The notes: generated from the letters alone by a model not told the origin. A stretch of 64,000 nucleotides of DNA from Lachnospiraceae bacterium (GCA_024692715.1 JAILMH010000003.1:1-64000); one strand, 5' to 3'; shown: positions 17,704-40,694, counted from the stretch's first letter. Program-made: numbers and translations.

Positions 17704-17713
17704 TTTTCCTCTT

Positions 17714-19468
17714 TCACGCCTGTATGGTCGCAGGATCTACAGCATTTACCGTTCCATTTTCAACCCTAAAGATATACTCACAGTTTTTGATAGTCGTTAA
17801 TCGATGAGCGATTATGAGCAGTGTCTTCTTTCCGTGAAGCCTCTCTATAGCCTCCATGACCGCCTTTTCTGTTTCATTGTCAAGTGCACTGGTCGCCTCA
17901 TCAAGAACAAGTATCTCGGGGTTTCCATAGAGCGCTCTGGCGATACCGATCCTCTGGCGCTGTCCTCCGGAAAGTCTCACGCCACGCTCTCCAACCTCTG
18001 TATCAAGTCCCTCAGGAAGTGAGCGGACAAAATCTGCAAGCTGAGCCTCTTCAAGTGCGCTCCATACCTGTGCTTCATCTATTTTGTCCTTATCTATTCC
18101 AAAAGCGACATTACTTCTTATGCTCTCATCCGCAAGAAAGATAGCCTGTGGAATATAGGCAAGTTTCTCCGCCCATCTGAGCGGATTTTCATGAACATTC
18201 ATGCTTCCGTACTTAACACAGCCGCTTCTTGGGAAAAGAATTCCAAGAATGACATCCGCCATTGTCGATTTACCTGCACCACTAGGGCCTATAAGTCCTA
18301 TAGATGCGCCAAGCGGTATATCAAAGCTTACATTTTTCAAGACATCTTCATCTGTCTTAGGGTAACGATATACCAGATTTTCTACACTTATCTTATCCGG
18401 CTTTTCTTCAAGCTCTCCCTGATGCGCATCTGTGATCTCCACATCCACCATATCCTCAGTTTCTCTGAGATCATGATAGATAAGGTCTATCGAAGGCTTA
18501 AGAAATGTTATTCCGTTAAGATAATTACTGATCTTTCCGACTGACGGCAGAAGCTTGAAAGCCGCAACTGCAAAGGCGGCAAGCTGCGGAAGTATGCTGT
18601 TCAAGTCTGTGCCTGTACGAAGCTTGAATACCAGCACGAGCATAATTCCTGTAATGCAGACCGTCTCTATCAGATACTTCGGAACCTGTCCAAAGAAATT
18701 TGTGTTTATCAGTGCTGTCATCTTTTTATCACCGCAGTTTGTAAATTCCTTTACAAAGTATTTCTCACGATGAAGGATCTTAATATCCTTTACTGCTCCA
18801 AGAGCCTGATTGATAGCCTGATGCATCTTTCCGTCATACTTCTGATTCTGCTGCCCGTAAGCTCTGACTCTCTTACGCGTAAGCACACTGTAAAGTCCCA
18901 CACATACAAGCAGTATCACAGCCATTGTTATCGACATCACCGGATCACTGAAAAGCAGATACAGCGCGAGCATCATTGAAAGAAGGATCTCCGATGCAAC
19001 ATTCAGTACCGAAAGGATAAGCTGAAAAAGTCTGTCTGTATCCAGCATGATGTTTCTTATCATCTCTGAGGTATTATGATCGAGATGATAGGTATATGGT
19101 TTTTTAAGATAGCAGTCGACAAGCCTGCTCGCGCATTTAAGCTGATTTTTATAGATAAAAGAATACTGAAAATAGTACATAAGCGTAAGATACAGATTCT
19201 TTAAGAAGTAAATTGCGATTATCACAAATACAAGAAAAACAAAGAAATCTGTCACTGAATGCATACCGCACAATGTATATATTTCGTGAAGTATTCCGGG
19301 CTCATCCACAACTTCCGGCTTTGAAATGAGATTGATGAGCGGCATTATGAGCGATACGCCCACAAGCTCAAGCATAGCACCTATGAAGATTGCAAACATA
19401 AGCTGTATCATACGGTGTTTCTGTTTTTTGTCGAATATATAGTTTAATTTGTGTAAAATGTCATTCAT
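17714..19468 (-). CDS. ABC exporter, PglK/MsbA-like glycolipid flippase candidate
   Basis: A 584-residue half-transporter. Residues about 20-320 hold six membrane segments (first IQLMFAIFIGAMLELVGVSLI); residues about 355-575 hold the ATPase with Walker A GPSGAGKST, signature LSGGQRQRIGIARAL and Walker B ILVLDEATSALD. Placement inside a glycosyltransferase cluster suggests it flips a lipid-linked oligosaccharide across the membrane, as PglK does, rather than exporting peptide; that is inference. No Wzx-type flippase or Wzy-type polymerase is recognisable in the cluster. The gene overlaps the upstream glycosyltransferase by 4 bases. Confidence 0.88.
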   Translation of the reverse strand: MNDILHKLNYIFDKKQKHRMIQLMFAIFIGAMLELVGVSLIMPLINLISKPEVVDEPGILHEIYTLCGMHSVTDFFVFLVFVIIAIYFLKNLYLTLMYYFQYSFIYKNQLKCASRLVDCYLKKPYTYHLDHNTSEMIRNIMLDTDRLFQLILSVLNVASEILLSMMLALYLLFSDPVMSITMAVILLVCVGLYSVLTRKRVRAYGQQNQKYDGKMHQAINQALGAVKDIKILHREKYFVKEFTNCGDKKMTALINTNFFGQVPKYLIETVCITGIMLVLVFKLRTGTDLNSILPQLAAFAVAAFKLLPSVGKISNYLNGITFLKPSIDLIYHDLRETEDMVDVEITDAHQGELEEKPDKISVENLVYRYPKTDEDVLKNVSFDIPLGASIGLIGPSGAGKSTMADVILGILFPRSGCVKYGSMNVHENPLRWAEKLAYIPQAIFLADESIRSNVAFGIDKDKIDEAQVWSALEEAQLADFVRSLPEGLDTEVGERGVRLSGGQRQRIGIARALYGNPEILVLDEATSALDNETEKAVMEAIERLHGKKTLLIIAHRLTTIKNCEYIFRVENGTVNAVDPATIQA

Positions 19469-20568
19469 CTGTTAAACGCCCTGTATTTCATTAGATTCAT
19501 CATCTTTTTGCGATTCATACCCGGATAAAAATAATCCTCTAATATTCCTGTTTCTGTTCTGAGTGCTCTTGATTTCCTTGTGAGATCATAAAGCCTTATC
19601 TCTCTTCCCGGTATCTTTAAGAAAATATTTGCATCCATCGGTCTGAGCACAAGTCCATAATGCTCCATCACATGATACGGCAGAGACTGTGTCGAAAGAA
19701 GATAGTTCATTTTGACTGCATGATCTCTTATTTTCAAGCCATAAAGGTCGGATTCATAAGGCATGAGCGCATTTTCAAAATATGCGTCATATACTGCTCT
19801 TGAGTCAGCAAGCCCCGAGAAGTGGAAGGTATGTGTCGTTCCAAAGGAAAGCGGGACCTGCAGATCTGTAACTGCATGAAAAGCGTGTTCTCCAGCATCT
19901 GCAAAGTTTGTAGTATAAGAAATTCGCGGATAAAGGAAGTATCTGTCAGTTTCTATAAGATACTTTATAGCATATTTAAGCCATGAATTTTCTGACCACG
20001 CAGCAGCATCTGAAGGCATACCGTTTCCATGGAGATCATCTCCGTCATGCTCTTTCTGCCAGTCTCTGAAATCATCCCACTGCTTTGCTGTCCACGCCTG
20101 TCCCCAGCTTGAAGCAAACTGGAAGTACCAGTTATCATAGCCATCGTCGATAGGCTCAAAGGGAAGACGGGCAAATACATTGAATCTGTGATTGTAAAGG
20201 GAAATTCCACCGATCTCATCCCTCATCGCCGAAAAATCCAGCGCACTTGATGCAAACCTGTAAAATTCCGGAGACACATATAGATCATCCTCAAGCATGA
20301 TGATACTTCCAAATTCATTTGTGTAATTACCGCACTCTAAAATATGCTTTTTAAGCCCGAGTCTGTCCGCATGACGGACAACTCTCTTATTTCCATGCTT
20401 CCAGTTGAATTTTTCCGCGATTCTCGCAACTTCAGGATTGTCACTGTTGTCTATACTTATGATGAGCTGTATATCATCATAGTCATAGCTGGCTTCCGCC
20501 ACGGACACCAGGATCCTCTTTAATGAATCCACTCTGTTGTATGCTGCTATAACTATTGCCGGTTTCAT
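19465..20568 (-). CDS. GT-A fold glycosyltransferase
   Basis: The protein (367 residues) opens with [20 protein letters not shown] and has the metal-binding [16 protein letters not shown] motif around residue 92-108; the EDD triad and the sequence context resemble GnT-I-like and related nucleotide-diphospho-sugar transferases. The centre is Trp-rich ([20 protein letters not shown]). It overlaps the acetyltransferase gene by 4 bases upstream and the ABC transporter by 4 bases downstream, so it is embedded in the glycan operon. Sugar specificity is unknown. Confidence 0.82.
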
Positions 20569-21257
20569 GATCTTCCCATTGCCTCCAAAAATACCTTAAT
20601 ATCCTTAAATTCATCTATATGAGCTCTGATCCATTCATCAGAATTTTCCCACCACTTTAACTCTTCAAGTCTTTTTACCGTCTCTTCATCAAAACGATAT
20701 CGGATCACTCTGGCAGGTACGCCAGCACAAATACTGTATGGCGGGGTATCCTTAACTACCAACGCTCCGGCACCAACGACCGCGCCGTCTCCTATGGTGA
20801 CACCATCCATTATTTTTACGTGGTTTCCGATCCACACATCATTTCCTATCTTTATATTTCCTACTTCACCCTTAAAGGTCTTTTCCTTTGCAAAGGAGAA
20901 ACCAAATGTCTCTGCCGGGTCTGTGAATGCCGGATGCATGGCAACCTGATCTTTTATCGGATGCCTTCCAACGACAGTTGAAACTCCTGCACCTATCGAA
21001 GTATATCTTCCGATCTCGGTGTCGGTAAAGTCCCCGTCTCTATTGATATATGAACCTCTGCCAAGCTTTCCATTTACAAATGAGGTATTGCGTCCGAGAA
21101 AATTTCTTCCCTCAAGTACTGCTCCTCTCACATATGAACCCTGCTTTAATATGCTGTTTGTCTTTATTTCGCAGGACAACCGTATAAACGGAAAAAAAAG
21201 GCAGCGATAAATACCGCTCGCTGCCTCATTTAATTTTCTTTTCCAGATTTTTTTCAT
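20565..21257 (-). CDS. Left-handed beta-helix O-acetyltransferase
   Basis: A 230-residue protein with hexapeptide repeats from about residue 35 to 185, ending in [20 protein letters not shown] and [13 protein letters not shown]. These are hallmarks of the CatB/WbbJ class of acetyl-CoA dependent transferases. The segment [14 protein letters not shown] supplies the likely catalytic His (about residue 97). Within this cluster it most likely O- or N-acetylates a sugar of the surface glycan. It overlaps neighbours by 4 bases on both sides. Confidence 0.88.
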
Positions 21258-22066
21258 TTTACTTCTACCCGCTTCTGGTGCCGCATCTTGCGCTGCACCT
21301 TACGAATCCAGTATTTAAGCCAGCCCGGAAAATAATCCATTCCAAACTGCCTTATATTGATCGACCACATCTGCTTCTTTATTTCTTCATCCCCCGGAGT
21401 CTCTATTCCGTTTTCTCTGCGTATTGCTATCGATTCAAGATAGGTGTCCTTAAGCCTTACGCTGGAAACCCCGGTCTTTGAAACCTTTGCAATGAGCACT
21501 CCCGTATCTGAAAACATGCAGCCTGCATTATATGCCTGGAGCAGAAAGTTATAGTCAGCTCCTATCTTCCACTTTAGATCAAAGGGAAAGCTTCTCATAA
21601 GCCTTGTCCTTGCAAATACGCTCTGATGAGAAAAAGGCATGCGCTCCTTTATTTTTTCAGGACATTTTCTGAAATAATGATACTCTCCAAACTCCTCCTC
21701 GGCTGTATCGCCAAAAAGAAGATCTGAAGCACTCCAGTCACGGCCCTCAAAGATATCCGAAAGCACATGATCTGAAAAATAGCAGTCTCCGGAGTTCATA
21801 AAGCTTATCCATTCACCTACAGCTCTTTTTACAGCTATATTCATGGCGTCATAGAGTCCCTTATCGGGCTCTGAAATGATCCTGAAGGATATCCCTCTCT
21901 CCTTAAAACGGCTTCTGTAACTTTCTGCAACTTTTACAGTACCATCCTTTGAACCGCCGTCCTTTATTATATACTCAAAATCTGAATATTTCTGAGAAAG
22001 CACCGACTCTATCGTAGCCGCGATAAATTTCTCTTCATTATAGCATACAGTGATCACTGTTATCAT
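21254..22066 (-). CDS. Family 2 glycosyltransferase (WcaA/colanic-type)
   Basis: The GT-A domain begins [20 protein letters not shown] with [16 protein letters not shown] near residue 38 and [14 protein letters not shown] near residue 95. These are typical of capsule/O-antigen GT2 enzymes. The track start lies 6 bases upstream; the GAGGGAG site gives better spacing to the second ATG at 22066, which also matches family N-termini. The C-terminus is basic ([16 protein letters not shown]), possibly for membrane contact. It lies between an acetyltransferase and a GT4 gene. Confidence 0.88.
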
Positions 22067-22078
22067 TAACATTCTCCC

Positions 22079-23182
22079 TCAACGCTGTCTCAGATGCTCG
22101 TAAAGTTTTGCCACTATAGGATCCCATCTAAAATCATGCCAGGTATAATCTGCAATTTCCACCGCTCTCGACTCCCAGTCCGCCTTCGAATTCATAAGTC
22201 TTACAAAGGCACCTGAAAGCGCCATACTATCATCGACCGGAACTATATAACCGAACTTTCCGTCGTTATAGATATCCCTTCCTGCCGGAACACCCTTTGT
22301 AGTCACAAGGAAGTCCCCGTTTGCCGCAGCTTCAAGCAGCACTATTCCAAAGCTTTCTGACCTTGAAGGTAATGTAAATATCTTTGCCCTTCTGTAATAT
22401 TCATTCAGCTTTTCCTTATCGGTAATTGGTCCTGTGAAAATGATCCTGTCCTTAAGGTCCGGATGTCTTGCCATGAAGCTTGAAATATAGGTCTTAAACT
22501 CTTCTTCAATACTTCCCACAAGATAGAGCTTCCAGTCATTCTGCACTGCCGCACCTGCAAAAGCATTAAGGAGAACATCTGTAGCCTTTGCATAGGTACC
22601 GAGATTTCCGACCGCCAGTATCATATTTTCTTTATTGAATGTCTTAACAGGCTGTTCTTCATCTGTATAAAATCCATTCGGAATATATATGATCCTTGGG
22701 CCATACTTCTTTTCCATCCAACCTGCGATAAGTGTAGTCTCTACAGAAACCACATCTGCAAGCCTTATGGTCATCCTCTTTATAAATCCGACCGGATTCG
22801 GCATGAGAAGCCTTTTATAGCCCTTAAGATCCATATCGAGCTTAAGGTATCCCTTTCCGCCCGGTTTTTTCCTAAGTTTATAAATAAGCAGGTACACAAA
22901 GCTCGAAAGATTCAGGTGATAGACATTGAGCACATCTATCCCGGATGCATTTTTCCACACAAATTTTGCTCCCGCTATGATCGGTGAAATCATATCTTTT
23001 TTCAGAAATTTCACCTTAAGTCCCTTTACCTCTTTTTCAAGATAAGGATAACTTTCATCATTTTTATATGACACCATAATGCTGTTAACATTGTAGTCTC
23101 TGTGCAGCATGTATGGGATCATTCCAACATCCTTTAATAGATGTACATTTTTCAATCTGGTAAACAGCGTAACAAATACCAT
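22079..23182 (-). CDS. Family 4 glycosyltransferase (GT-B fold)
   Basis: A 367-residue GT-B enzyme. The C-terminal domain has AVGNLGTYAKATDVLLNAFA, the IIFTGPITDKEKLNEYYRRA block and FTLPSRSESFGIVLLEAAAN, in which E-x7-E contacts the donor nucleotide. The track start at 23200 precedes the GGAGG site; the ATG at 23182 (MVFVTLF) follows it at proper spacing. It is transcribed away from the plus-strand GT2 gene only 36 bases distant. The cluster context suggests hexose transfer to a lipid-linked glycan. Confidence 0.88.
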   Translation of the reverse strand: MVFVTLFTRLKNVHLLKDVGMIPYMLHRDYNVNSIMVSYKNDESYPYLEKEVKGLKVKFLKKDMISPIIAGAKFVWKNASGIDVLNVYHLNLSSFVYLLIYKLRKKPGGKGYLKLDMDLKGYKRLLMPNPVGFIKRMTIRLADVVSVETTLIAGWMEKKYGPRIIYIPNGFYTDEEQPVKTFNKENMILAVGNLGTYAKATDVLLNAFAGAAVQNDWKLYLVGSIEEEFKTYISSFMARHPDLKDRIIFTGPITDKEKLNEYYRRAKIFTLPSRSESFGIVLLEAAANGDFLVTTKGVPAGRDIYNDGKFGYIVPVDDSMALSGAFVRLMNSKADWESRAVEIADYTWHDFRWDPIVAKLYEHLRQR

Positions 23183-23218
23183 TTGCCGCCTCCACTTCAA
23201 ACGATTATAATAGGCATC

Positions 23219-24076
23219 ATGAAAACAACATTAATAATACTTAATTATAACGATGCTGAGCGAACAATCAAGCTCGCCCAGACAGTAAAAAATTATAACT
23301 CAATAAATCACATTGTAATCACTGACAATGCATCAAGTGACGATTCATTCGCAAGGCTTTTAGAAATCGCCGACGATAAAATTTCCGTAGTGACCTCCGG
23401 CTTTAACGGCGGCTATGCCAAAGGCAATAATTTCGGCTGCCGCTATGCCATAGCAAATTTTTCTCCGGATATTTTATTTGTGGCAAATCCGGATGTAGCC
23501 TTTGACAATGAAACTGCCGCTGCAATGGCTGCAGCTCTGACAAAATGCAAGAATCTCGGCGTAGTAGCTCCTCTTGTACGCAAAGGTTACAATGTATGGA
23601 ATCTCCCGGGCTTTGCCGGAATCATCGAGAGCCTTTTCCTTGTATGGTTCACTCTCGACAAGCTCCTTATACGAAAAAAGATATTAAATTCTGACAAGCA
23701 GCTTGTCCCTGCCGGAGTCGCCGAAGGTTCATTCTTCGCTCTCACTGCTGCCGCATTTAAGGAAGCAGGCGGTTTCGATGAGCGGACCTTCCTTTACTCT
23801 GAAGAGATAATCCTTGCATCGAGGCTTAAGGCACTCGGACTTCGTACCGGCATCTTAAGAGATTACCGCTACGACCATATGCACTCTGCAAGTATCAAAA
23901 AACACTACAACTCTTCAAAAGCCCGCACCTTCAAGCATTTTGCAGAAAGCTTTGCCATCTATAACAAGCACTATCTGCACACAACTCCTATGCAGGATAA
24001 AATTTATGATCTTGCCTGTAAGCTCGCCTATGGCGAAAGGCTTGTCTATGATTTTATCAAAAATCATATGCCTTAA
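23219..24076 (+). CDS. Family 2 glycosyltransferase on the opposite strand (rhamnosyltransferase-like)
   Basis: The only plus-strand gene in the glycan cluster. It begins MKTTLIILNYNDAERTIKL, has HIVITDNASSDDSFARLLE and the FVANPDVAFD metal site (residues about 88-97), and then VAEGSFFALTAAAFKEAGGFDERTFLY, a pattern seen in dTDP-rhamnosyl and similar transferases. The track start at 23141 lies inside the divergent gene; the ATG at 23219 matches the family start, although its ribosome binding site is weak. The stop overlaps the stop of the convergent GT4 gene by 3 bases. The acceptor is unknown. Confidence 0.87.
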   Translation: MKTTLIILNYNDAERTIKLAQTVKNYNSINHIVITDNASSDDSFARLLEIADDKISVVTSGFNGGYAKGNNFGCRYAIANFSPDILFVANPDVAFDNETAAAMAAALTKCKNLGVVAPLVRKGYNVWNLPGFAGIIESLFLVWFTLDKLLIRKKILNSDKQLVPAGVAEGSFFALTAAAFKEAGGFDERTFLYSEEIILASRLKALGLRTGILRDYRYDHMHSASIKKHYNSSKARTFKHFAESFAIYNKHYLHTTPMQDKIYDLACKLAYGERLVYDFIKNHMP

Positions 24077-25179
24077 AGGTCTGCGAGCTCACGTATACTC
24101 TTAACCATGTGCTCCCATGAAAAACGTCCACTATCGGCTTTGATCTCAGCTTTGAAATCGAAGCCGTTTTCTTTCATGGAATAAAATTTCTTTACAGCTT
24201 TCACAAGTTCATCTGCATCTGCGCTTTCACAAAGAACTCCTGTCTTGCCATCTGTTACAACCTCAGGAAGTCCGCCGACTCTTGTTGCTATGACCGGCTT
24301 TTCGAATCCGAAAGCTATCTGCGCTATACCACTCTGTGTCGCATCTATATACGGAAGTACGACTGCATCAGCTGCTGCAAAATATTTCTCCACTTCACGA
24401 TCTGGCGTATATCCGTCATGTATCTCAACCCTGTCTCTCACTCCAAGAGAATCTATGAGCTCATCATATTCTGCTCTGGCATTTCCAAAATCTCCGACAA
24501 CCATCAGCTTTACATCCTCAAGGGACTTCATCGCATCAAGCATGTATTTAAGCCCTTTATAAGGGCGGATAAATCCAAAGAAAAGGATCACCTTTTCCTC
24601 TGAAGTCTTCTCAGGCTGATCGTGAAAATTAAATGCACTATAAGTAGGATGCATATTCACTATATATTTAGGGTCCCGGATAATAGTCTTGAGCTCAGAG
24701 GCTTCTTTGGAAGAATGGAGCACAAAATAATCTCCTCCCCTGAGAGTAAGGCGCGTCAAAAACCTGTCCAACGGAAATCTTTCGTGTGGAAAGACATTAT
24801 GGCAGGTAAACAGGATCTTCGTCTTTATAAGCGCAGAAAGTATCCTGTAACACGGCGCAAAATATGGATGCCACCATTCGATGATCACAAGCTCCGGTTT
24901 CATCGCATTGATCTTCATCGCAGTGGCAATAATATTGAATGGATTGGCTGTATTCAGCCAGAAATGAGTGTTTTCAACCTTAAAGCTGTCATTTTTAAAA
25001 TCCCTCTGCTCCTTTTTGAAAAGAAGCTTCGGGTACTGCATGGAATAAGAGATCACTTCGGTATTAAATTCTTTCCTCAATGCTCGAGCCAGCAGCCCCG
25101 TATAATGAGAAATTCCGCCTTTAAATGGGTAAACCGGGCCGATCAGAACTATTTTCTTTTCAGTTTTTTCGGTTGTCAT
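24073..25179 (-). CDS. Family 4 glycosyltransferase
   Basis: A 368-residue GT-B enzyme beginning KKIVLIGPVYPFKGGISHYTG, with the N-terminal Gly-rich loop, VILFFGFIRPYKGLKYMLDA near residue 200 and VVLPYIDATQSGIAQIAFGF with the E/D-x7-E type donor site near residue 290. Its start overlaps the dolichol-phosphate-mannose-synthase-like gene by 20 bases. It shares a 3-base stop overlap with the opposite-strand GT2 gene. Probable role: transfer of a hexose in surface glycan assembly. Confidence 0.88.
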   Translation of the reverse strand: MTTEKTEKKIVLIGPVYPFKGGISHYTGLLARALRKEFNTEVISYSMQYPKLLFKKEQRDFKNDSFKVENTHFWLNTANPFNIIATAMKINAMKPELVIIEWWHPYFAPCYRILSALIKTKILFTCHNVFPHERFPLDRFLTRLTLRGGDYFVLHSSKEASELKTIIRDPKYIVNMHPTYSAFNFHDQPEKTSEEKVILFFGFIRPYKGLKYMLDAMKSLEDVKLMVVGDFGNARAEYDELIDSLGVRDRVEIHDGYTPDREVEKYFAAADAVVLPYIDATQSGIAQIAFGFEKPVIATRVGGLPEVVTDGKTGVLCESADADELVKAVKKFYSMKENGFDFKAEIKADSGRFSWEHMVKSIRELADL

Positions 25180-26140
25180 TCAAGATTTCCTCATTGCTTT
25201 TCTCTCCGGCTTCAATTCTTCTGAGTCTGAACTGAATATCCTCAAGAATCTTTCTATTAGCTGCAATAATATCAGCCTGAAGTCCCATGATAAATGTGGA
25301 GAATCCAAGCATCATCAATGTACTTGCAAGGATAAGTGACTGGATATGTCCAACTCCCTGTCCCTGTGAGAAGTAAATGATGAATCTGATCGCAAGCACA
25401 AGCCCGATGGTAAACGGAATTAGTCCTATCAATGAGAAAAATACCAACGGACGATACATCATATATGCTCTGATTATTGTGAGGATAGATTTTTTAATGT
25501 ATCCTGCCATACTGCTGAAAAGTCTTGACTTCCTAAGCTCCGGATTTGTATTTATCGGAACCGAAGTGATAGCCATACTGTTTCTTCCGGCCTGCACAAT
25601 TGTCTCAAGTGTATATGTGTAGTTATTGATAACATTTATATGCATTGCTGCATCTCTTGAAAAAGCTCTGAATCCGCTCGGAGCGTCCGGAATATCTGTT
25701 GCAGATGCTTTACGCACTACAAAGCTTCCAAGATGCTGAAGCTTCTTTTTAAGCGGTGAAAATCCCGGTGTATCATCAATAGGTCTTTCACCGATAACGA
25801 TCTCAGCTTTATGCTCGAGGATCGGTCTTACAAGTTTTTCAATGTCTGAACCGCAATACTGATTATCAGCATCTGTATTTACGATAATGTCTGCGCCATT
25901 TCTGAGACAGGCATCAAGACCTGCAATAAATCCCTTTGCAAGACCTTTATTCTTGACAAAGGAAACGACGTAATTAACGCCCCATTCCTTTGCCACTTCT
26001 ACAGTATTGTCTGTACTTCCATCGTTGATAATAAGGTACTCGATCTCATCAATGCCATCGATATGACGCGGCAGAGCATCAAGTGCTACCTTGAGTGTTT
26101 TTGCTTCGTTTAAACACGGAATCTGAATTATGAGCTTCAT
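25160..26140 (-). CDS. Polyprenyl-phosphate glycosyltransferase (DPM1-like GT2 with C-terminal membrane segments)
   Basis: The N-terminal GT-A domain begins LIIQIPCLNEAKTLKVALD, has LIINDGSTDNTVEVAKEWGV near residue 36 and a VNTDADNQY metal site near residue 90. Two hydrophobic segments follow at about residues 229-255 and 266-290, then a charged helix. This layout is that of DPM/ArnC/GtrB-type enzymes that charge undecaprenyl phosphate with a sugar. It may supply a sugar donor on the outer side of the membrane. It overlaps trhP by 4 bases and the next glycosyltransferase by 20. Confidence 0.9.
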   Translation of the reverse strand: MKLIIQIPCLNEAKTLKVALDALPRHIDGIDEIEYLIINDGSTDNTVEVAKEWGVNYVVSFVKNKGLAKGFIAGLDACLRNGADIIVNTDADNQYCGSDIEKLVRPILEHKAEIVIGERPIDDTPGFSPLKKKLQHLGSFVVRKASATDIPDAPSGFRAFSRDAAMHINVINNYTYTLETIVQAGRNSMAITSVPINTNPELRKSRLFSSMAGYIKKSILTIIRAYMMYRPLVFFSLIGLIPFTIGLVLAIRFIIYFSQGQGVGHIQSLILASTLMMLGFSTFIMGLQADIIAANRKILEDIQFRLRRIEAGEKSNEEILNDNRKN

Positions 26141-32131: not shown

Positions 32132-32177
32132 CTGTATATGCAATTAGGGGGATTCCTATACAGAAATCCTCCTAATT
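32132..32177 (-). terminator. Strong hairpin after the envelope operon, probable terminator
   Basis: AATTAGGGGGATT (32142-32154) pairs with AATCCTCCTAATT (32165-32177) over 13 positions with one G-U. On the minus strand a run of T occurs only about 10 bases after the stem, so it is not a classic terminator. CTGTATA (32132-32138) could pair instead with TATACAG (32157-32163) in an alternative fold. Confidence 0.55.
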
Positions 32178-32223: not shown

Positions 32224-32904
32224 TTATCCGTGATACTCGCCATTGTAAGCGATCATTGTAACATCATCGATTCCGCTGATAGCACGGATCTCATCTGCCA
32301 CCTTGAGATCCTTCTCAACACAGTCAACCTGAACCGTAAGCTCTGTGCTTCCTTCTCTTACAGTCTTTGACTTAACTGAATGCTCAAACTTCTTAAGCTT
32401 TTCAAGTGCCTTTTCCTCAGCATCACCATTTGCATGAATGACCATGATATAAGCCTTTGCAATACTGTGCTTTCCATTCATCGCAATGATAAGGATGAGC
32501 ATGAAGAACATTCCGATAGCTGCAAGAAGATACATACTTGCACCAACTGTAATACCTGTCGTTATCGCCCAGAAGAGATACAAAATATCCAGCGGTTCCT
32601 TGATCGCCGTACGGTATCTGACGATTGAAAGTGCACCGACCATACCAAGTGAGATAACTATGTTTGTACTAATAGCAAGTGTAACCATACATGTAAGAAC
32701 TGTCATTCCTACAAGAGTAAGTGCAAACGATCTGGAATAGATAACTCCCTTGTAAAACTTCTTATAAATTGCATAAATAAGAAGCCCAGCAATCAGTGCC
32801 AGTGCCATATCAACCATAATGGTAAGCAGAGTGCTGAGAGAAATTGTCTGATTATACATATCAGATTCCAGTACCGATTTCTTGATCATTGCTTTAACGC
32901 TCAT
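32224..32904 (-). CDS. DUF4956 membrane protein
   Basis: A 226-residue protein with four hydrophobic segments in the first 150 residues (for example MVDMALALIAGLLIYAIYKKF and VTLAISTNIVISLGMVGALSI), the conserved SIVRYRTAIKEPLDILYLFWAI stretch and a soluble C-terminal domain with EKALEKLKKFEHSVKSKTV. DUF4956 proteins are often next to VTC-domain and CotH-type genes, exactly as here. The conserved arrangement suggests a membrane partner of the VTC protein. It lies 77 bases after that gene. Confidence 0.88.
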   Translation of the reverse strand: MSVKAMIKKSVLESDMYNQTISLSTLLTIMVDMALALIAGLLIYAIYKKFYKGVIYSRSFALTLVGMTVLTCMVTLAISTNIVISLGMVGALSIVRYRTAIKEPLDILYLFWAITTGITVGASMYLLAAIGMFFMLILIIAMNGKHSIAKAYIMVIHANGDAEEKALEKLKKFEHSVKSKTVREGSTELTVQVDCVEKDLKVADEIRAISGIDDVTMIAYNGEYHG

Positions 32905-32981
32905 TATAATTCCAACCTTTCCTTTGCCCCTTGGTGATAAATATCCCCTTTAGATATTACACCTGATTTATTATTTTAACC

Positions 32982-33692
32982 TTAATTAAACCCATAAATA
33001 TTTCTTTTTACATCATCGCACATAACAAACTTGGATGCAGCAGTATATATCGACTGCTCCGGAGGAAGGATGCTTCTGAAAATATCCGGAAGAAATTCTG
33101 TGTATTTTACTTCCATGATAAGATATTCCGGCTCCATCGCATCATATACCGGGATATTTTTACTGAATATATCCCAATCAGTGAAAGCGGACCTTACCTT
33201 CATGTCAAATGTGATCCGCACCGTTCCCTGATCATATATCCACGGAATCCGGTCATAGTCTACGATGACCTCCGGCTTCATGCCATTAACAGTACATTCC
33301 AGATAAAATTCTCTGCACAGTTCATCATCACGTTTGAGAAGAAATGCATAGTCACCTTTTATGATCTTTTCTACTTCTTCTCTGCTCAGGCGGGCCGAAG
33401 CTTTGTATATATAGTTTCCCTGTTTACGTTTACATTCAAGGCTTATAAAATCATCACTATAATTATAAATTCTTATACGATATTTTTTTCTCACAGCTGT
33501 TCCGGCCATTTTTTCTTCATACGCATTGTGCCATAAATCATCAAAATACAGGCTTCGTATGAAGTACTGACCATCAATAGCATGAGAGTCAATCGATGCA
33601 AACGTTTTAAGACGACTTTCAATCACGTCTTTTTCTGCATAGCTAATCAAATATTTCATCTCATGCCTAAATTTGACTGTCTTATCGCTCAT
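32982..33692 (-). CDS. VTC domain protein, polyphosphate-polymerase-like triphosphate tunnel enzyme
   Basis: VTC4 of yeast makes polyphosphate from ATP within a triphosphate tunnel barrel. This 236-residue protein has the tunnel residues in order: RHEMKYLIS, YFIRSLYFDD, KKYRIRIYN, SLECKRKQGNYIYKA, VDYDRIPWI, VRITFDMKVRS and YLIMEVKYTEF, so Lys, Arg and Glu positions appear intact. It lacks the SPX regulatory and membrane regions of the eukaryotic form. The TTG at 33710 is possible, but ATG at 33692 follows AAGAGG closely and is my choice. Part of a DUF4956-VTC-CotH set. Confidence 0.87.
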   Translation of the reverse strand: MSDKTVKFRHEMKYLISYAEKDVIESRLKTFASIDSHAIDGQYFIRSLYFDDLWHNAYEEKMAGTAVRKKYRIRIYNYSDDFISLECKRKQGNYIYKASARLSREEVEKIIKGDYAFLLKRDDELCREFYLECTVNGMKPEVIVDYDRIPWIYDQGTVRITFDMKVRSAFTDWDIFSKNIPVYDAMEPEYLIMEVKYTEFLPDIFRSILPPEQSIYTAASKFVMCDDVKRNIYGFN

Positions 33693-33757
33693 ATCCTCTT
33701 CTTTCCCCAATTAATTGATTCTACCGTAAACAGTTTAAAATGTCTAATAACAACTAA

Positions 33758-35848
33758 CTATTTACAATTTAACTCAACATCTTTAACTATGTATTCGTAA
33801 CGCTTTTCATAAAATTCCTTGAGCTTATCCACTTCAGCATCAAAATCGCTTATCGTCTTTTTCCCACTGTAATAGCGCTCATATGTAAGCTCCATCTGTG
33901 GTCTTATAAGCTCTGCCAGCGAATCTATCTTAGCATTCACCTGCTCTGTATCAAAGAGCTCTGTGCTTATTTCATCAAAGCGCTCCTTAAAATCTTTTCT
34001 AAACTGTTCACTCTTCATTAGCGACTTAAGGAGCCAGTTCTTACCGCTGACTTCTGTAAGACTTTCAAGCTCAACATTTTCAAGATCCATGGATGTGGAA
34101 TTCACATCAAATATGCAGAATCTCCACTTTCCATCTTCATATTCACCATTGCCGGTCTCTCTGACGCGCCACATTCCAACGTTAGATCCGGGCCAGTCGT
34201 TAGTATGCGCAATGTAGATCTGCGCAGTGTAATAATCCAAAAGACTGTCTATGTCCACCCGCTTTTTGAACTCTTCATAAACCGCCGGATCATTCAGATC
34301 AGCATGCGTAACATACGTGGTAAGCTCGTCATAAAGCTCTTTATCCTCAGGATCACCTGCACCGACAGCATCATTTTTTATCATTATGACATTGTTTTCA
34401 TCAACGCCATATTTATCCGAAAAATATGTTTTGCTGTACTTTTGTGCGATCCAGTATAATCCCCAGTACTCGCCATCCAGAAAAACCGCTGCCGGCTTTC
34501 CTTCAAGCACTGCTGCCGAGCTGTCTTTCATAATGTCCGCGAAAAGCATATCCTTAAGCTTTGTGCTGAGATCATCACCTCCGCTGAAAAGAGATATAGA
34601 TTTTTCTTTCCTGTCACCTGCGATCAGATTTTTATCAAAATATGAATCTCCATATGCACCTCTGGCGAAAAGATTAAAGCTCTTCTGCGCATATCCACGG
34701 CTTCCGCCGCCCTTTATCCTGACGCCAAGTGCCTGTGTCAGCTCAAGCTCATGGTTTTCATCAAAAAATGATACCACAGCAGCTCTTTCAGCTTTCCTTC
34801 CGGCAAGGTGATAGTTTCCCGGGGTCCACCACCATATCCCGGCTTTATCGTAGCTTTCTTCTGCTCCGGAAGTTACGTAATCCGCATAGGTCTTACCCAG
34901 CACATAAATTCCGTTCTCATAGGAGAAAAGCCCCTCAGGATCGCTTACAAGGCTTACAACGCTGATACCATCATATTTTTCTTTTTTATCGTATCCGACA
35001 AAATAAACCGATGTATAGGAATCACTCTTTTTCCCGGAATCATCAAAGGCTGCAGCTCTTACCACAACTGCCTTATCCACCGGCTTTGAAGGAATATAAG
35101 TCCTTATCGCAACATCTTCACTTGCAGAATACACATTTTCATTTTTACTTGCATCCGTTATCTCCAACGGTGCTGTATACTTCTCTGAATCACTGTCCGG
35201 CTCACTACCGTCAAGTGTATAACGGATCGTAAGTCCCGGCTCTGTACTTAGAGAAAGCTTGAAGTCTTCATCATAAAAGCCGCTGCTTTCGGAGAAATTA
35301 ACAGCCGCATTCAGTGTTTCTTTAAGACTCACTGCACTGTCATTACTGGCAATAGGCGTAGGTGTCAGCCTATCCCATTTCGAATCTCCATCCCTTATCC
35401 TTCCCCAGACTGTATCCGGTTTCAGATAAGGAACATCTATTTCATCAATTACTCTGCCGCTTGGAGTCGTCAGACTTATTGCAGTCCCCTCAGACGAGAT
35501 TGAAAAGTCAGCCTCTCCATCTACTCCATCACTATCTGCAAATATTATAAGATATCCATTCGCCGGTACTATCTTTCCATCGATCGTCCATCCTGAATCA
35601 AGCGCTTTGTTTTTAGAAAGACGCCACCCTGTAATATCCACATCTTCAGAAGTCGGATTATACAGCTCTATCCAATCCGGATATCTCCCGTAATTATCAG
35701 AAACTGTTGACAGATTTGAAGCACACACCTCATTTATAAGCACATGCCTGCCATCACTCCATAAACTTCTGCAGACTGCCAAAGTAATGATAAGTGCAAA
35801 GAATATCAGAAGTACCACATGAAGGTACCTGTTAAACCACTTTCGCAT
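33758..35848 (-). CDS. CotH-like secreted kinase with lamin-tail and chitobiase-like domains
   Basis: A 696-residue exported protein: N-terminal membrane anchor (VVLLIFFALIITLAVC, residues 11-26), lamin-tail domain (INEVCASNLSTVSDNYGRYP through ITGWRLSKN, residues 38-145), a chitobiase C-terminal-like domain (TIRYTLDGSEPDSDSEKYTA, about 205-225) and a CotH domain (about 295-690). The CotH part has IKGGGSRGYAQKSFNL, DGEYWGLYWIAQKYS, TNDWPGSN (near 549) and IFDVN (near 579), where family kinases have catalytic acidic residues. CotH kinases phosphorylate spore coat and other extracytoplasmic proteins. No sporulation gene is near, so an envelope role seems likely. VTC follows 65 bases downstream. 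Confidence 0.87.
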   Translation of the reverse strand: MRKWFNRYLHVVLLIFFALIITLAVCRSLWSDGRHVLINEVCASNLSTVSDNYGRYPDWIELYNPTSEDVDITGWRLSKNKALDSGWTIDGKIVPANGYLIIFADSDGVDGEADFSISSEGTAISLTTPSGRVIDEIDVPYLKPDTVWGRIRDGDSKWDRLTPTPIASNDSAVSLKETLNAAVNFSESSGFYDEDFKLSLSTEPGLTIRYTLDGSEPDSDSEKYTAPLEITDASKNENVYSASEDVAIRTYIPSKPVDKAVVVRAAAFDDSGKKSDSYTSVYFVGYDKKEKYDGISVVSLVSDPEGLFSYENGIYVLGKTYADYVTSGAEESYDKAGIWWWTPGNYHLAGRKAERAAVVSFFDENHELELTQALGVRIKGGGSRGYAQKSFNLFARGAYGDSYFDKNLIAGDRKEKSISLFSGGDDLSTKLKDMLFADIMKDSSAAVLEGKPAAVFLDGEYWGLYWIAQKYSKTYFSDKYGVDENNVIMIKNDAVGAGDPEDKELYDELTTYVTHADLNDPAVYEEFKKRVDIDSLLDYYTAQIYIAHTNDWPGSNVGMWRVRETGNGEYEDGKWRFCIFDVNSTSMDLENVELESLTEVSGKNWLLKSLMKSEQFRKDFKERFDEISTELFDTEQVNAKIDSLAELIRPQMELTYERYYSGKKTISDFDAEVDKLKEFYEKRYEYIVKDVELNCK

Positions 35849-35887
35849 ACATATAATGCCCTTCGCTTTTCTGTCTCGAAAAACAAA

Positions 35888-36622
35888 TTATTTGAAAAGC
35901 TCTGACGCTGCTCTGAGATCATTCTCATTATCGATCTCATACCATTTTTCTCCGTTAAGCCTGCGTGCCTTTAGAGTTTGCCCTTCAAGACTTCTTATTA
36001 TACCAATAACTGACTCATAGTAAACATTATCTCCCATAGCTTTTCTATATGCCTCCATAAAGGGAACATAATACTTAGTCGAAAAGCCACGGCTAAACTT
36101 GTACATATTGACTGTTTTATAATACTCTGATTTTTCTTCTTCACAAAATTTTTTTCCGGGAATAAAATCAATTATATTGTCATTTTCATCAAGTTTTAAG
36201 CAAGTTCCATCCATCCAGTCATCATATTTATCCACCAGTGCAACAGAGTCCCTTTCATCTTCCGCGAGTCCCTTTATCACTCCATGTTCAGTGATCAGAT
36301 CAGACTCCAGAAGCAGAGTATCATCTTCGAGAAGATATTTGTCCGCAATAAAGAGCGAATAAATATTATTTGTTGTATCATATATTTTATTTTCAACAAA
36401 CACAAGTGGGGTTTTTACACCAAGACTTTCTATATAGCCCTTAAGGAGCTCACTTTTATAGCCTGTGACGATTATTATCCGCTGGAGCTCTAATCCGTCA
36501 AGCTCGCGCAGCATCCTTTCAATGAGAGAAACCCCGTTTACCTTAACCATACACTTGGTATTATTCTCAGTATATTCTTTTAGCCTTTTACCCATTCCAG
36601 CTGCCAGAATCAATGCCTGCAT
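35888..36622 (-). CDS. Nucleotidyltransferase, LicC/phosphocholine-cytidylyltransferase-like
   Basis: A 244-residue NTP-transferase with MQALILAAGMGKRLKEYT at the N-terminus, TKCMVKVNG in place of the usual PKPLVKV segment and LLESDLITE (metal-binding Asp near residue 105). LicC-like enzymes activate small polyol or choline phosphates with CTP. Because a CDP-glycerol-type transferase gene lies 1 base upstream, the most natural idea is a CDP-activated alcohol, but substrate is not readable. The track start adds 34 residues from the upstream frame; AGGAGG precedes the ATG at 36622. Confidence 0.82.
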   Translation of the reverse strand: MQALILAAGMGKRLKEYTENNTKCMVKVNGVSLIERMLRELDGLELQRIIIVTGYKSELLKGYIESLGVKTPLVFVENKIYDTTNNIYSLFIADKYLLEDDTLLLESDLITEHGVIKGLAEDERDSVALVDKYDDWMDGTCLKLDENDNIIDFIPGKKFCEEEKSEYYKTVNMYKFSRGFSTKYYVPFMEAYRKAMGDNVYYESVIGIIRSLEGQTLKARRLNGEKWYEIDNENDLRAASELFK

Positions 36623-36623
36623 A

Positions 36624-37883
36624 TCAAATTCCTCCTGCTTTCTGTCCCAATTCTTCATACTTTCCAACAAGGTAATCCACTGTACGAACAGCAGCTTCTC
36701 CCGGAAGCTCCCATCTTTCGCCACGCACCTCAGCCCTTCCAGCCTTCAGTGGGTCCTCTTCTATCAACCTGTCGATGATTTCCTTTATATCTCCAAAGTC
36801 ACACTTTTCAAGCTTCTGTCCTATTCTCTTATGCGCATCAAAGCTGTATAGACCTTCTTTATCAAGCCACCACGCATCATAAGGTGAAAGATCAAAGGAT
36901 GTATCTGCGTACAACACCGGCTTATCAAAAACCAGTGCATAGTCAAATATAACACTCGAAAAGTCGGTTATCATGATATCTGCTTTATTAAGGACATCAA
37001 AATTGTCATTGTCCCTGTTCCATGAAAGCTTTTCGCTTTCAGGGTATTTACGCTGAAGCTCTTCCATAAGAGGAATTTCCGAAACAAATGACTGCGGATG
37101 TGGACGAACTATGATCTCATATCCTGTTTTCTGCAAGGCTTCGATCAATTCTCCGCCAAACCTTGACAGAATAGAGCTTTTACCCCAGGAAGATGCCACG
37201 AGCACTGTCCTTCCGGCCTTTTCGGCACGTCCTGTCTCTTCAAGCCGCTTCTTCATCACATCCATATATGCGGAGCCCACATAAGTAAGCTCTTTCTTCT
37301 TTATGGAAGGTCTTATTTTTTCCATATTTCTTATGTTCTTTTCCTGCACATTTCCGGAAAGAAGAACCGCATCATAATAATCAAGCCCGAACATCCTGTA
37401 AAGAGCACTGTCTCCAGTAGAATGATAGGTATGCACATACCAATCCACATTCTGTGAGCGTTTCCACTGATATACATCAAGCCCGGGAGTTGTCGCAAGA
37501 AGTATACCGGCCTTTGCAAAATTCAAACGGGCAAAGGCTTTGTTTCCCTCACCTATGAACTCACATTTAACATATTCATACTTTTCTTCAAGTGCCGGAT
37601 CATTAGAAGCTGCAGTCCAGTACTCAAGCGGTATTTTTCTCTTTTCAAACTCGTCACACACCGGCTTAAAAATATTCCAATACCATTTATTATCACTGAA
37701 TATCAGGTACGGTATCTTCTTTGCCGATGCAGTATCAACCTTGCCTCCGCTTATCATAAATTTAACCTTCAGAAAGATTTTTTGAAGAAAAAATACAACA
37801 GCAGCAGCTACTCCAACTATTACCGAAAACAGCATGCTTCCAGTACCCGGATCAATATATAGTAAAATTCCGGAATAATTCAT
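36624..37883 (-). CDS. CDP-glycerol glycerophosphotransferase family protein (TagB/TagF-like)
   Basis: A 419-residue protein with a hydrophobic N-terminus (YIDPGTGSMLFSVIVGVAAA, residues 10-30) and the teichoic-acid transferase fold: HTYHSTGDSALYR near residue 155, YVGSAYMDVMKKRLEE, VLVASSWGKSSILSRFG, VRPHPQSF and TDFSSVIFDYALVFDKPVLY near residue 310. This family transfers glycerol- or ribitol-phosphate from CDP-polyols to make teichoic acid chains. The next genes encode a nucleotidyltransferase and a large YidC/phosphatase-superfamily fusion, which supports phosphopolymer synthesis as inference. Confidence 0.88.
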   Translation of the reverse strand: MNYSGILLYIDPGTGSMLFSVIVGVAAAVVFFLQKIFLKVKFMISGGKVDTASAKKIPYLIFSDNKWYWNIFKPVCDEFEKRKIPLEYWTAASNDPALEEKYEYVKCEFIGEGNKAFARLNFAKAGILLATTPGLDVYQWKRSQNVDWYVHTYHSTGDSALYRMFGLDYYDAVLLSGNVQEKNIRNMEKIRPSIKKKELTYVGSAYMDVMKKRLEETGRAEKAGRTVLVASSWGKSSILSRFGGELIEALQKTGYEIIVRPHPQSFVSEIPLMEELQRKYPESEKLSWNRDNDNFDVLNKADIMITDFSSVIFDYALVFDKPVLYADTSFDLSPYDAWWLDKEGLYSFDAHKRIGQKLEKCDFGDIKEIIDRLIEEDPLKAGRAEVRGERWELPGEAAVRTVDYLVGKYEELGQKAGGI

Positions 37884-37898
37884 AATTTCTGCCCTTCC

Positions 37899-40694
37899 TT
37901 ATTCTCCGGCACTTTTATTGCCGGCATAGACCCAGTTAGATTTATCGAAAATATTTTCACTTACCGTATACCATGAAGAATCGCCTGTGTTGAACACATT
38001 TCCACTGTTCTTCTCAAGATGCAGATTGTCGGAAAGTGTCACCATCATAGGCTCTTTATTCTTCGCATCAGAATTTACTTCATTTCCCGTAAACGGATTT
38101 ACCGGGTCACTGATCACTCCCTCCATTGCAAGCGTCGGAACATCCGCATTTGTCATAAAGGTGTTATCAGTAGTAAATTCTTTCGCATCAAAGTCTTTGA
38201 ACATAAGAAGCGGATTTACAGCTTCAACGTCAAGCTCATCATTTACGATCATATCTTCAAACTGTCCAAGATCATAGCCATGATCTGCAACGATTATAAT
38301 TCTTGTATTGTCATAAATCCCCTGTTCTTTAAGGTAATCAAACCAGTTTCCAAGCTGTATAAATGATGCCATATTTACATGATAATGATATTTACCAGGT
38401 TTTTCCTCTTTATAGGCATCGACTGTCTTTCCGTTAAGGGTAAACCTCGACGGGTCATCATACTGTGAATTATTGACATTTCCACTCGGCACATAGTCAG
38501 GCATCTGAAGCTCTGACGGATTATGTGTTGTATTATTGTGGATCATGAAAAAGCTTCCCTTGCCGTTATCTGTTATGTCAGTAAGCTTTGAGAGATTCTT
38601 AAGTACCGCATAGTTTCTAAGGAAATCCTGATCCATGTTATTAACTGTGGTTCCAAAGTAATCTCCGGAATCATAGATAAAGTTCTGCAGAAACAACGGT
38701 GAGGCCTTAAATAAGCTGTACCAGAAAAAGTTTCTGTATTTTATCTCTTTGTGATCAGCTGCAAGTTCATCATCACTTAAAAGATTAGTGTATTCACCAA
38801 GCTTTGTGTGATAAGCGCTGATCCCGGAATACTTCTCGTAGATAGAGAGATCCGGTATATCCTTGTACCCCGCATATGACGGATCACAGACCGTTGCCTG
38901 ATAGCCGTTATCAGAAAAAAGTACCGGCATCAGCAGATCTGCCTGATCGTTTTTTTCTGCCATTGTCTCATCTGTACGTGCATTTATAGCCGCGGGAGTA
39001 TATTCGTATCCGCCATATACCGCAGGGGCTGCCAGATTAGTATGCTCTCCGAAAGAAATAGTATTCGGATAATAGGTAAATCCGGAGAACTGCTCCTTAA
39101 GCTCAGGGCGCTCATTTAACATATAAGGAACATAGCCGCTTATTGCTCTGTCGAGAAGAATGACGACCACGTTCTTTTCATTCCTGCTGAGCTTGATTAT
39201 CGGCTCCACTTCATCATCGGAAGACTTTGCATTCTTTCTTCCCTCGTCTATATACTCGATATCTGAAATATCTTTATTAACTCCAACGACATTATAGGCT
39301 GTAAGAGCCACACCGCCGATAAGTATCACCGAAAGAGCCATAGCCACAAACTGCCTGCGTGCACGATATACAAACGCAAGTACACAGAAAAGTACCACAA
39401 GTACAGCGACATTTATAAGCTTCTCTGATGTCGAATAATGAACTGCCTCTTTATATTCAAGCAATGTTGAAAGTGTACCGAAATTCTTTCCAAAAAACAT
39501 GTAATTGACAAGCGAAGCTATCGCAAGTAAAAACATGACAAAGGTCTGGAACTTTTTAACTTTCTCAGTTCCAAAGAAATAGATTATAGCTCCGCCCCAC
39601 ACAAGGAAAAATCCGGCTGCTATCGATGCAGTGCTGAGCACATAATACAGCGGATTAACGTATGAATATACGTTTACAAAATCCTCAGGTGACGCGCTGA
39701 CAACAGACATAGGGATCAATACACCGTATACACATGTAAGGCATAAGCCTGAAAGAAGGAATATCTTCCCGGTCTTAACATCAGTATTAATAATTCCAGA
39801 TAAAATCTCTCTGAATTTCTTAAGCGCACCTGCAATGACACCATTCGGAGCTTTATCTTTGCAGGCTGCTGCAAATCTTATAAGAGTCGGAATATTCATA
39901 AGTCCGAATAAGAGGAGCATAAACACTGCTCTCTTTAGACTTCCGAGCTTTCCAACAGCCATACACGAAGCAAAGATCACCACCGATGCTGCGCTCAGTA
40001 TCACTGAAAGCACTTTCCCCGGATTCGGCACCAGCTTCAGGAAAATATTTTTCACAAGAGAAAACAGATTGTTTAAGGTCCAGTAAAATACCAGTCCTGC
40101 CGGTCTGTCATACAAAAATACAAGGAAGATCAGCGCAAGGATATAGAGCTGAGCCTTATCCTTTAACGGAAAGCCTCTTGTATAGATCACTCCGGATATA
40201 AAGTTTATAAGTGTCATTAAGATTGGAAAAATATTGATTGAAATACCGAACAGTACTAAGAGCTGATCCGGTGAGCCCATATCATTAATAATCCAAAAAG
40301 ATGTACCCTTTAATAACGATAAATTCGAAAGATATTTATACGCCGCCGTAAAAAACGGAATCTGAAGCAGCAGCGGAAGTGAACCTCTGAAAACATAAAG
40401 CGGTGAATAGTTCTGCTCACGGTAGTAAGCCTGCAGTATCATGAACCTTTCATCACCCTTAAAGGTCTTACGGATGTGTTTTATAGGAAGTGCCATAAGC
40501 TTCTGCATCCGGCGCTCCTCATCCTGAATCGCATCCGCCTTTCTATAAAGCGGAAGCGAAAGTACATTAACCGCTATGCTCACAGAAACGATCGCTATTC
40601 CTGCATTACCGAACATCCTGTAGGTTACAGAAAAGATCGTTTCCATAACCAGGACAAGCGGCATGATAAATATGTTGTATAAACAAGTAAGCAT
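37899..40694 (-). CDS. YidC/Oxa1 domain fused to multi-span region and alkaline-phosphatase-superfamily (LtaS/sulfatase-like) domain
   Basis: A 931-residue protein. Residues about 5-222 look like YidC: NVLSLPLYRKADAIQDEERR, the Arg-containing region and SLPLLLQIPFFTAAYKYLSN are characteristic. Residues about 230-470 hold about seven further membrane segments. Residues about 500-860 are outside and resemble LTA synthase or sulfatases: NVVVILLDRAI (Asp515), GEHTNLAAPAVYGGYEY (Thr552 as possible nucleophile), NNTTHNPSE (His724) and IVADHGYDLG (Asp804, His805) give a full metal site. It lies 15 bases before the glycerophosphotransferase gene. The predicted reaction is phosphoglycerol transfer or hydrolysis at the surface; this is inference. 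Confidence 0.85.
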   Translation of the reverse strand: MLTCLYNIFIMPLVLVMETIFSVTYRMFGNAGIAIVSVSIAVNVLSLPLYRKADAIQDEERRMQKLMALPIKHIRKTFKGDERFMILQAYYREQNYSPLYVFRGSLPLLLQIPFFTAAYKYLSNLSLLKGTSFWIINDMGSPDQLLVLFGISINIFPILMTLINFISGVIYTRGFPLKDKAQLYILALIFLVFLYDRPAGLVFYWTLNNLFSLVKNIFLKLVPNPGKVLSVILSAASVVIFASCMAVGKLGSLKRAVFMLLLFGLMNIPTLIRFAAACKDKAPNGVIAGALKKFREILSGIINTDVKTGKIFLLSGLCLTCVYGVLIPMSVVSASPEDFVNVYSYVNPLYYVLSTASIAAGFFLVWGGAIIYFFGTEKVKKFQTFVMFLLAIASLVNYMFFGKNFGTLSTLLEYKEAVHYSTSEKLINVAVLVVLFCVLAFVYRARRQFVAMALSVILIGGVALTAYNVVGVNKDISDIEYIDEGRKNAKSSDDEVEPIIKLSRNEKNVVVILLDRAISGYVPYMLNERPELKEQFSGFTYYPNTISFGEHTNLAAPAVYGGYEYTPAAINARTDETMAEKNDQADLLMPVLFSDNGYQATVCDPSYAGYKDIPDLSIYEKYSGISAYHTKLGEYTNLLSDDELAADHKEIKYRNFFWYSLFKASPLFLQNFIYDSGDYFGTTVNNMDQDFLRNYAVLKNLSKLTDITDNGKGSFFMIHNNTTHNPSELQMPDYVPSGNVNNSQYDDPSRFTLNGKTVDAYKEEKPGKYHYHVNMASFIQLGNWFDYLKEQGIYDNTRIIIVADHGYDLGQFEDMIVNDELDVEAVNPLLMFKDFDAKEFTTDNTFMTNADVPTLAMEGVISDPVNPFTGNEVNSDAKNKEPMMVTLSDNLHLEKNSGNVFNTGDSSWYTVSENIFDKSNWVYAGNKSAGE

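Follow-up and report, generated by a model that had tools for sequence, protein, structure and literature searches.

The six open reading frames at positions 32,224-40,694 of a 64,000-nt stretch of DNA from a Lachnospiraceae bacterium (the window) raise the question of whether neighbouring genes that share a strand and are nearly contiguous also share a pathway. All six lie on the minus strand, and gene calling together with Pfam searches bears out the families, the single direction and the 1-77 bp gaps recognised by the initial annotation, every family name being above its curated cut-off (Table 1). That annotation went further, and proposed that the six genes act together in building or decorating a phosphate-linked polymer. 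Here, we find that the block is two separate gene sets. Module A encodes a YidC-sulfatase fusion (YidCS), a membrane-anchored PF04464 protein of the TagF/CDP-glycerol transferase type (GlyPT) and a probable cytidylyltransferase (NTP), and module B encodes a CotH-like kinase, a VTC-domain protein and a DUF4956 membrane protein. The single six-gene pathway was set aside as the principal explanation, as the halves lie apart nearly everywhere that they were followed (22 further genomes and 77 GTDB loci). The account that we consider rather likely is that two modules stand side by side, module A being a head-group tailoring cassette in which NTP, GlyPT and YidCS act in that order, and module B an independent VTC-DUF4956 unit to which CotH may or may not belong. 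The probable role of module A is to decorate the cell surface with small groups linked through phosphate.

The central protein of module A is YidCS. Its N-terminal domain matches PF02096 (60KD_IMP) at 86 bits against a cut-off of 35, and the position of Arg366 in the groove of Escherichia coli YidC is occupied by Asn43; among 43 relatives this residue is Asn in 39, Ser in three and Gln in one. Because the groove arginine is replaced by Asn, Ser or Gln, we do not classify YidCS as an insertase. The C-terminal domain matches PF00884 just over the cut-off, and D515, T552, N720, H724, D804 and H805 are invariant in the 43 relatives. Foldseek searches with an AlphaFold2 model (predicted local distance difference test, pLDDT, 86) placed PbgA/YejM, MCR-1, LtaP and LtaS among the best matches, along with sulfatases and phosphonate monoester hydrolases, and the domain has the features of the alkaline phosphatase (AP) superfamily, namely a sulfatase/AP fold, a Thr nucleophile and Asp/His metal ligands. 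Like enzymes of the LtaS/EptA/MCR type, YidCS has an outer AP fold, a Thr nucleophile, metal-binding Asp and His residues and five predicted helices ahead of the catalytic domain; unlike them, it is fused to a YidC-like domain, and its gene is paired with that of a CDP-alcohol-type transferase. YidCS would be a case of a YidC-type domain that lacks the insertase groove charge and is fused to an LtaS/EptA-like enzyme. No description of a YidC-sulfatase fusion was found in the open-licence literature.

GlyPT matches PF04464 over its C-terminal part only, at 45.5 bits against a cut-off of 22.1. Its model (pLDDT 87) shows an N-terminal membrane helix followed by a GT-B fold, and its structural matches include TagF with CDP-glycerol (TM-score 0.55-0.56) alongside general GT-B enzymes. 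Invariant positions are the YIDPGTG segment, H154, R260, H262 and P263 of RPHPQS, and D307 and S309 of DFS; RPHP and DFS are TagF-type motifs. The segment YIDPGTGSM at residues 9-17 (window positions ~37859-37833) is near-invariant in 35 relatives. For NTP, a sequence search of the PDB returned PntC-AEPT (6pd1; 2.9e-14) as best match and then LicC (1jyk; 3.4e-11), and NTP retains in the alignment both glutamates of the PntC amine pocket (PntC Glu104 and Glu196), which in PntC face the substrate amine (PMC6697681). In a phylogenetic tree, NTP groups with the NTP domains of NTP-CobD-like fusions (support 94/86, identity 55-61%). NTP is likely a LicC/PntC-type cytidylyltransferase for an alcohol phosphate bearing a primary amine.

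The distribution of YidCS was examined in one genome per GTDB species, and the best 80 of at least 570 YidCS-encoding stretches were kept; GTDB neighbourhood counts refer to 77 loci, and the wider pairing counts to ~101-103 loci. These best 80 come mostly from Clostridia, with Coriobacteria, Treponema and one Negativicute also represented. The scan includes isolates such as Schwartzia succinivorans DSM 10502. YidCS is unevenly distributed in the family, with 16 carriers among 298 sampled genomes, and within the genus up to five paralogues are found per genome (G030), in differing polysaccharide contexts. Several YidCS genes stand in tandem or near one another at loci L174 and L182. A PF04464-like homologue of GlyPT is encoded within six genes of YidCS at 79 of the ~101-103 loci. 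Where the two genes are directly adjacent (n = 75), 74 pairs are on the same strand and 63 overlap or are at most 20 bp apart, with a median gap of 1 bp; the GlyPT gene comes first in 51 pairs and the YidCS gene in 23.

The neighbours of this pair are interchangeable head-group activating genes. Phosphonate genes, encoding phosphoenolpyruvate (PEP) mutase, Ppd and 2-aminoethylphosphonate (AEP) transaminase, adjoin the pair at 13 loci, and examples exceed the NCBIfam cut-offs (Ppd, TIGR03297, 455 bits; AEP transaminase, TIGR03301, 460 bits; PEP mutase, TIGR02320, 411 bits). Choline-type neighbours, comprising kinase-like genes at 15 loci and an EamA permease at nine, mostly the same ones, are LicABC-like in gene order and include a LicC-like NTP. 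A TagD-like gene lies beside the pair at four loci and an NTP-CobD-like fusion at seven. The fusions, in which a LicC/PntC-type NTP is joined to a CobD/HisC-like pyridoxal phosphate domain near GlyPT and YidCS, occur at L148, L157, L163, L178, L179, L191 and L141 (the domain was scanned in four), and could convert phosphoserine or phosphothreonine to a CDP-amino-alcohol. Module A is one example of a widespread cassette that appears not to have been described.

From the protein families, active-site conservation, folds, gene pairing and exchange of activating genes, we infer the reactions, direction and substrate of module A as follows. NTP would join CTP to a small amino-alcohol phosphate, with phosphoethanolamine, converted to CDP-ethanolamine, as a first guess. 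GlyPT, anchored at the inner face of the membrane, would take the phospho-alcohol off the CDP donor and hand it to an acceptor that may be a carrier lipid or a lipid-linked glycan. YidCS would then take up the group within the membrane, and its outer AP-fold domain would pass it, via Thr552 and a bound metal, to a glycan or teichoic-type polymer at the surface. The YidC-like part, from which the groove arginine is missing, would serve as a scaffold for membrane and substrate rather than as a protein insertase. The acceptor glycan could derive from a group of genes at window positions 15857-26140, upstream of the RNase J cluster, which by sequence reading encode glycosyltransferase-like and other polysaccharide proteins and an ABC-transporter-like protein of 584 aa. 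The initial annotation had envisaged activation of an alcohol phosphate, its transfer, and its handling at or outside the membrane, and for the first three genes these proposed steps, which correspond to NTP, the PF04464 protein and the YidC-AP fusion, agree with our assignments; in many genomes YidCS and GlyPT again stand together beside head-group pathways that can be recognised. The polymerisation that the annotation also proposed is less in keeping with the neighbouring pathways than the attachment of single groups to a glycan would be.

The choice of head group is tentative. PEP mutase was not found in the window genome, which is 90% complete, and AEP made by the cell itself was rejected on that ground. 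Because the genome lacks PEP mutase, the best guess is an amine that carries phosphate, not phosphonate, and phosphoethanolamine may be put forward with reserve as the substrate of NTP. More generally, YidCS and GlyPT could form a two-protein machine that sets the CMP-activated head groups supplied by its neighbours (AEP and phosphocholine-, phosphoethanolamine- or glycerol phosphate-like groups) on surface glycans across the membrane, a proposal to which we give a little less than an even chance; that such a machine is widespread in Clostridia, and present also in Coriobacteria, Negativicutes and Treponema, we hold with the same reserve. If it is correct, the pair would supply part of the missing transferase step in phosphonate tailoring, and a YidC fold would have been turned from protein insertion to the handling of lipids or head groups. 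A pair whose activating neighbours are swapped is a concrete candidate for the surface attachment of phosphonates and phospho-amino-alcohols in Gram-positive anaerobes, and one that is testable in cultured commensals.

Several observations weigh against the tailoring cassette. At 21 loci, YidCS occurs without GlyPT on the retrieved stretch. At 63 of 101 loci no recognised activating pathway of the kinds listed above lies within six genes, and these include the window's own locus and those of its two closest relatives. The names TagD-like and CobD-like are loose ones, because the examples score under the model cut-offs (69 bits against 165 for the TagD-like gene and 183 against 290 for the NTP-CobD-like fusion). 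A search of the window genome for a close CobD-like homologue found only generic aminotransferases at 22-26% identity, and a CobD-like partner encoded elsewhere in the genome was rejected for that reason. Finally, the AP-fold domain modelled for YidCS could be a hydrolase, as phosphonate monoester hydrolases and sulfatases share its fold; because the structural matches include hydrolases too, our assignment of transferase activity draws on gene context and not on the fold.

The presence of LtaS and LtaP among the structural matches of YidCS raises an alternative, that YidCS is a synthase of the lipoteichoic acid (LTA) type that polymerises glycerol phosphate from phosphatidylglycerol, with GlyPT and NTP making a linkage or primer unit. 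The window genome yielded no other membrane protein of the sulfatase fold; a canonical LtaS elsewhere was rejected, as the genome encodes only one more PF00884 protein, an arylsulfatase that is soluble. The TagD-like gene beside the pair in some relatives also agrees with this alternative. However, most of the identifiable partners make chain-ending head groups (AEP and choline-type) that are not polymerisable, the paralogues number up to five per genome and sit in different polysaccharide contexts, and the gene's presence in so few genomes of the family is unlike that of a housekeeping LTA synthase. We therefore regard an LTA synthase as unlikely, and favour head-group transfer as the role of YidCS.

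We consider it doubtful, to a slightly greater degree, that the six genes form one pathway in which a phosphate polymer, built or exported by module A, receives polyphosphate or is phosphorylated through VTC, CotH and DUF4956. Their common strand, short gaps and single terminal hairpin speak for such a pathway, as does the retention of the gene order in a sister species (G038), in which the six proteins are 80-94% identical to those of the window. Against it stands the behaviour of the two halves in other genomes. IreB-YqgF adjoins the VTC-DUF4956 core in 24 genomes of the genus, namely those of the window and G038 and 22 more, and PrmA/RsmE/NifS/ThiI often follow on the far side. Module A is present at this site in only two of the 24, the window species and G038, and absent from 22; CotH is there in ten, including eight of the 22 without module A. 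The slot ahead of CotH is occupied in G033 and G042 by an unrelated gene. In G042, the nearest other copy of module A (YidCS and NTP each 78% identical) is found within a polysaccharide cluster (L068) with putative NeuB-like and flippase-like proteins, while module B is at its usual chromosomal site (L107). Among the 77 GTDB loci, CotH was found within 10 kb of YidCS at none, and VTC-DUF4956 at one. Across Lachnospiraceae, the six-gene order, whose conservation beyond this strain the initial annotation had itself taken as the test of its proposal, is limited to the window species and G038, and by that test the single pathway is not supported. In three members of the genus, G021, G033 and G040 (L138, L139, L071 and L069), CotH-like genes do lie close to YidCS with neither VTC nor DUF4956 alongside, and this leaves room for a CotH-YidCS link inside the genus.

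The two separate modules would then have been brought together, with module A placed directly upstream of module B, in the window species and one sister species. The neighbouring genes compared between the window and G038 encode proteins that are 81-99% identical, and because the identities of the six genes resemble those of their neighbours, the modules must have been joined before the two species diverged. Module A is 87-91% identical to its G038 counterpart, slightly under most neighbouring genes, and its GC content, overall and at third codon positions, is unremarkable; base composition was accordingly rejected as a sign of recent transfer. Modules A and B may now be on a shared transcript in these two species.

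Among described systems, the closest logic to that proposed for module A is found in the Lic and Pnt pathways and in the CD0242/CD0244 step of Clostridium difficile, from which it would differ in its constant YidC-AP fusion partner. In the Lic (LicC, phosphocholine) and Pnt (PntC, AEP; PMC6697681) systems, as proposed for module A, a MobA-like cytidylyltransferase, to which the window NTP is kin, activates a head group with CTP, biosynthesis genes adjoin, and the target is a surface glycan; in module A the place of the transferase is taken by GlyPT, of family PF04464, and YidCS. The late Pnt steps have been called enigmatic, with LicD-like transferases pointed to, and the text of that report makes no mention of YidC, sulfatase or CDP-glycerol (PMC6697681). 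A LicC-like NTP is paired with a TagF-like transferase in the type A flagellin glycan system of C. difficile (CD0242 and CD0244), where mutants in the pair lose glycan phosphothreonine and CDP-threonine has been proposed (PMC10714395), and in the b-type flagellin glycan of Pseudomonas aeruginosa (PA1090 and PA1091; PMC11833859). Both pairs would use a proposed CDP donor to place a phospho-group on a sugar, matching the logic of module A; they act on cytoplasmic flagellin and are described without YidCS, in contrast to the membrane-anchored, YidCS-paired GlyPT of the window. That the target of module A itself is flagellin, or some other glycoprotein, inside the cell, as for CD0242/CD0244, with YidCS removing or recycling the group outside, is very improbable, for although its NTP and TagF-like logic fits the two flagellin systems and flagellar genes, named from their sequences only, lie at the start of the window, GlyPT carries an N-terminal membrane helix and is tightly coupled to YidCS, the published C. 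difficile and P. aeruginosa clusters contain no YidCS gene, and the window operon has no glycosyltransferase.

Module A is probably a variant of Lic/Pnt-type tailoring with an unusual transferase, and module B is of a kind already described. Genes for CotH, a polyphosphate polymerase and DUF4956 have been reported to stand next to one another as an accessory set to the Pel clusters of Gram-positive bacteria (PMC7112168), and a Clostridium perfringens locus was listed with genes for VTC and CotH (PMC2879425). Module B has the same three gene families as the Pel accessory set; unlike that set, it is not contiguous with pel. In three genomes of the genus (G014, G031 and G039), pelG lies a few kb from a copy of VTC-DUF4956. 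PelG was not found in the window genome, whose VTC-DUF4956 copy is one of those at the fixed site; a Pel link for this copy was rejected on the absence of PelG. VTC occurs in 47 of 48 genomes of the genus and DUF4956 is similarly widespread; the two are nearly always neighbours. The VTC-domain protein scores 114 bits in Pfam and had no match in a PDB sequence search; R15, E17, K19, K76, R78, R80, E92, K94, K103, R154, R165, E200, K202 and K227 are identical in 48 sequences, and these 14 charged residues, which a triphosphate-tunnel polymerase is expected to have, are intact. CotH matches its profile over the full length at 136 bits, with a weak match to the CotH structure 5jd9 (6e-6), and K389, E460 and D581 are conserved in 94-100% of 17 aligned sequences. 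The presumed role of module B, whose chromosomal site is fixed, is to make and move polyphosphate. The window genome has another, partial set, CotH-DUF4956-VTC-CotH, at the end of a contig (contig 6, 1-4245; L105).

Table 1. Features of the six-gene locus; coordinates are those of the window
Feature	Module	Coordinates	Strand	Length	Domains and remarks
YidCS (YidC-sulfatase fusion)	A	37899..40694	-	931 aa	Pfam 60KD_IMP 3e-24; Sulfatase 4e-6
YidCS domain layout	A				YidC-like 1-221; five further transmembrane helices 309-477; alkaline-phosphatase/sulfatase-fold domain ~497-925
GlyPT (membrane-anchored PF04464 protein, TagF/CDP-glycerol transferase type)	A	36624..37883	-	419 aa	Pfam Glyphos_transf 7e-12
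NTP (probable LicC/PntC-type cytidylyltransferase)	A	35888..36622	-	244 aa	Pfam NTP_transf_3 2e-9
CotH-like kinase	B	33758..35848	-	696 aa	Pfam CotH 2e-39; N-terminal anchor, LTD, chitobiase-C/Fn3-like domains
VTC-domain (polyphosphate-polymerase-like) protein	B	32982..33710	-	242 aa	Pfam VTC 1e-32
DUF4956 membrane protein	B	32224..32904	-	226 aa	Pfam DUF4956 2e-12
Inverted repeat 3' of DUF4956, possible transcript end		~32142..32177	-		Fold z -1.6; stem kept in G038

From YidCS to DUF4956, the intergenic gaps are 15, 1, 39, 47 and 77 bp. A promoter scan gave 40 matches where 28.6 were expected, and is hence of little use. The hairpin that the initial annotation placed at the 3' end is real, with a stem common to the sister species, although its stability is only modestly above that of shuffled sequences; a terminator scan made no call there because the run of T residues begins ~10 nt past the stem. 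The start of NTP is likely the ATG one base past the GlyPT stop codon, and an alternative reading frame of 278 aa begins at an upstream GTG inside the GlyPT gene.

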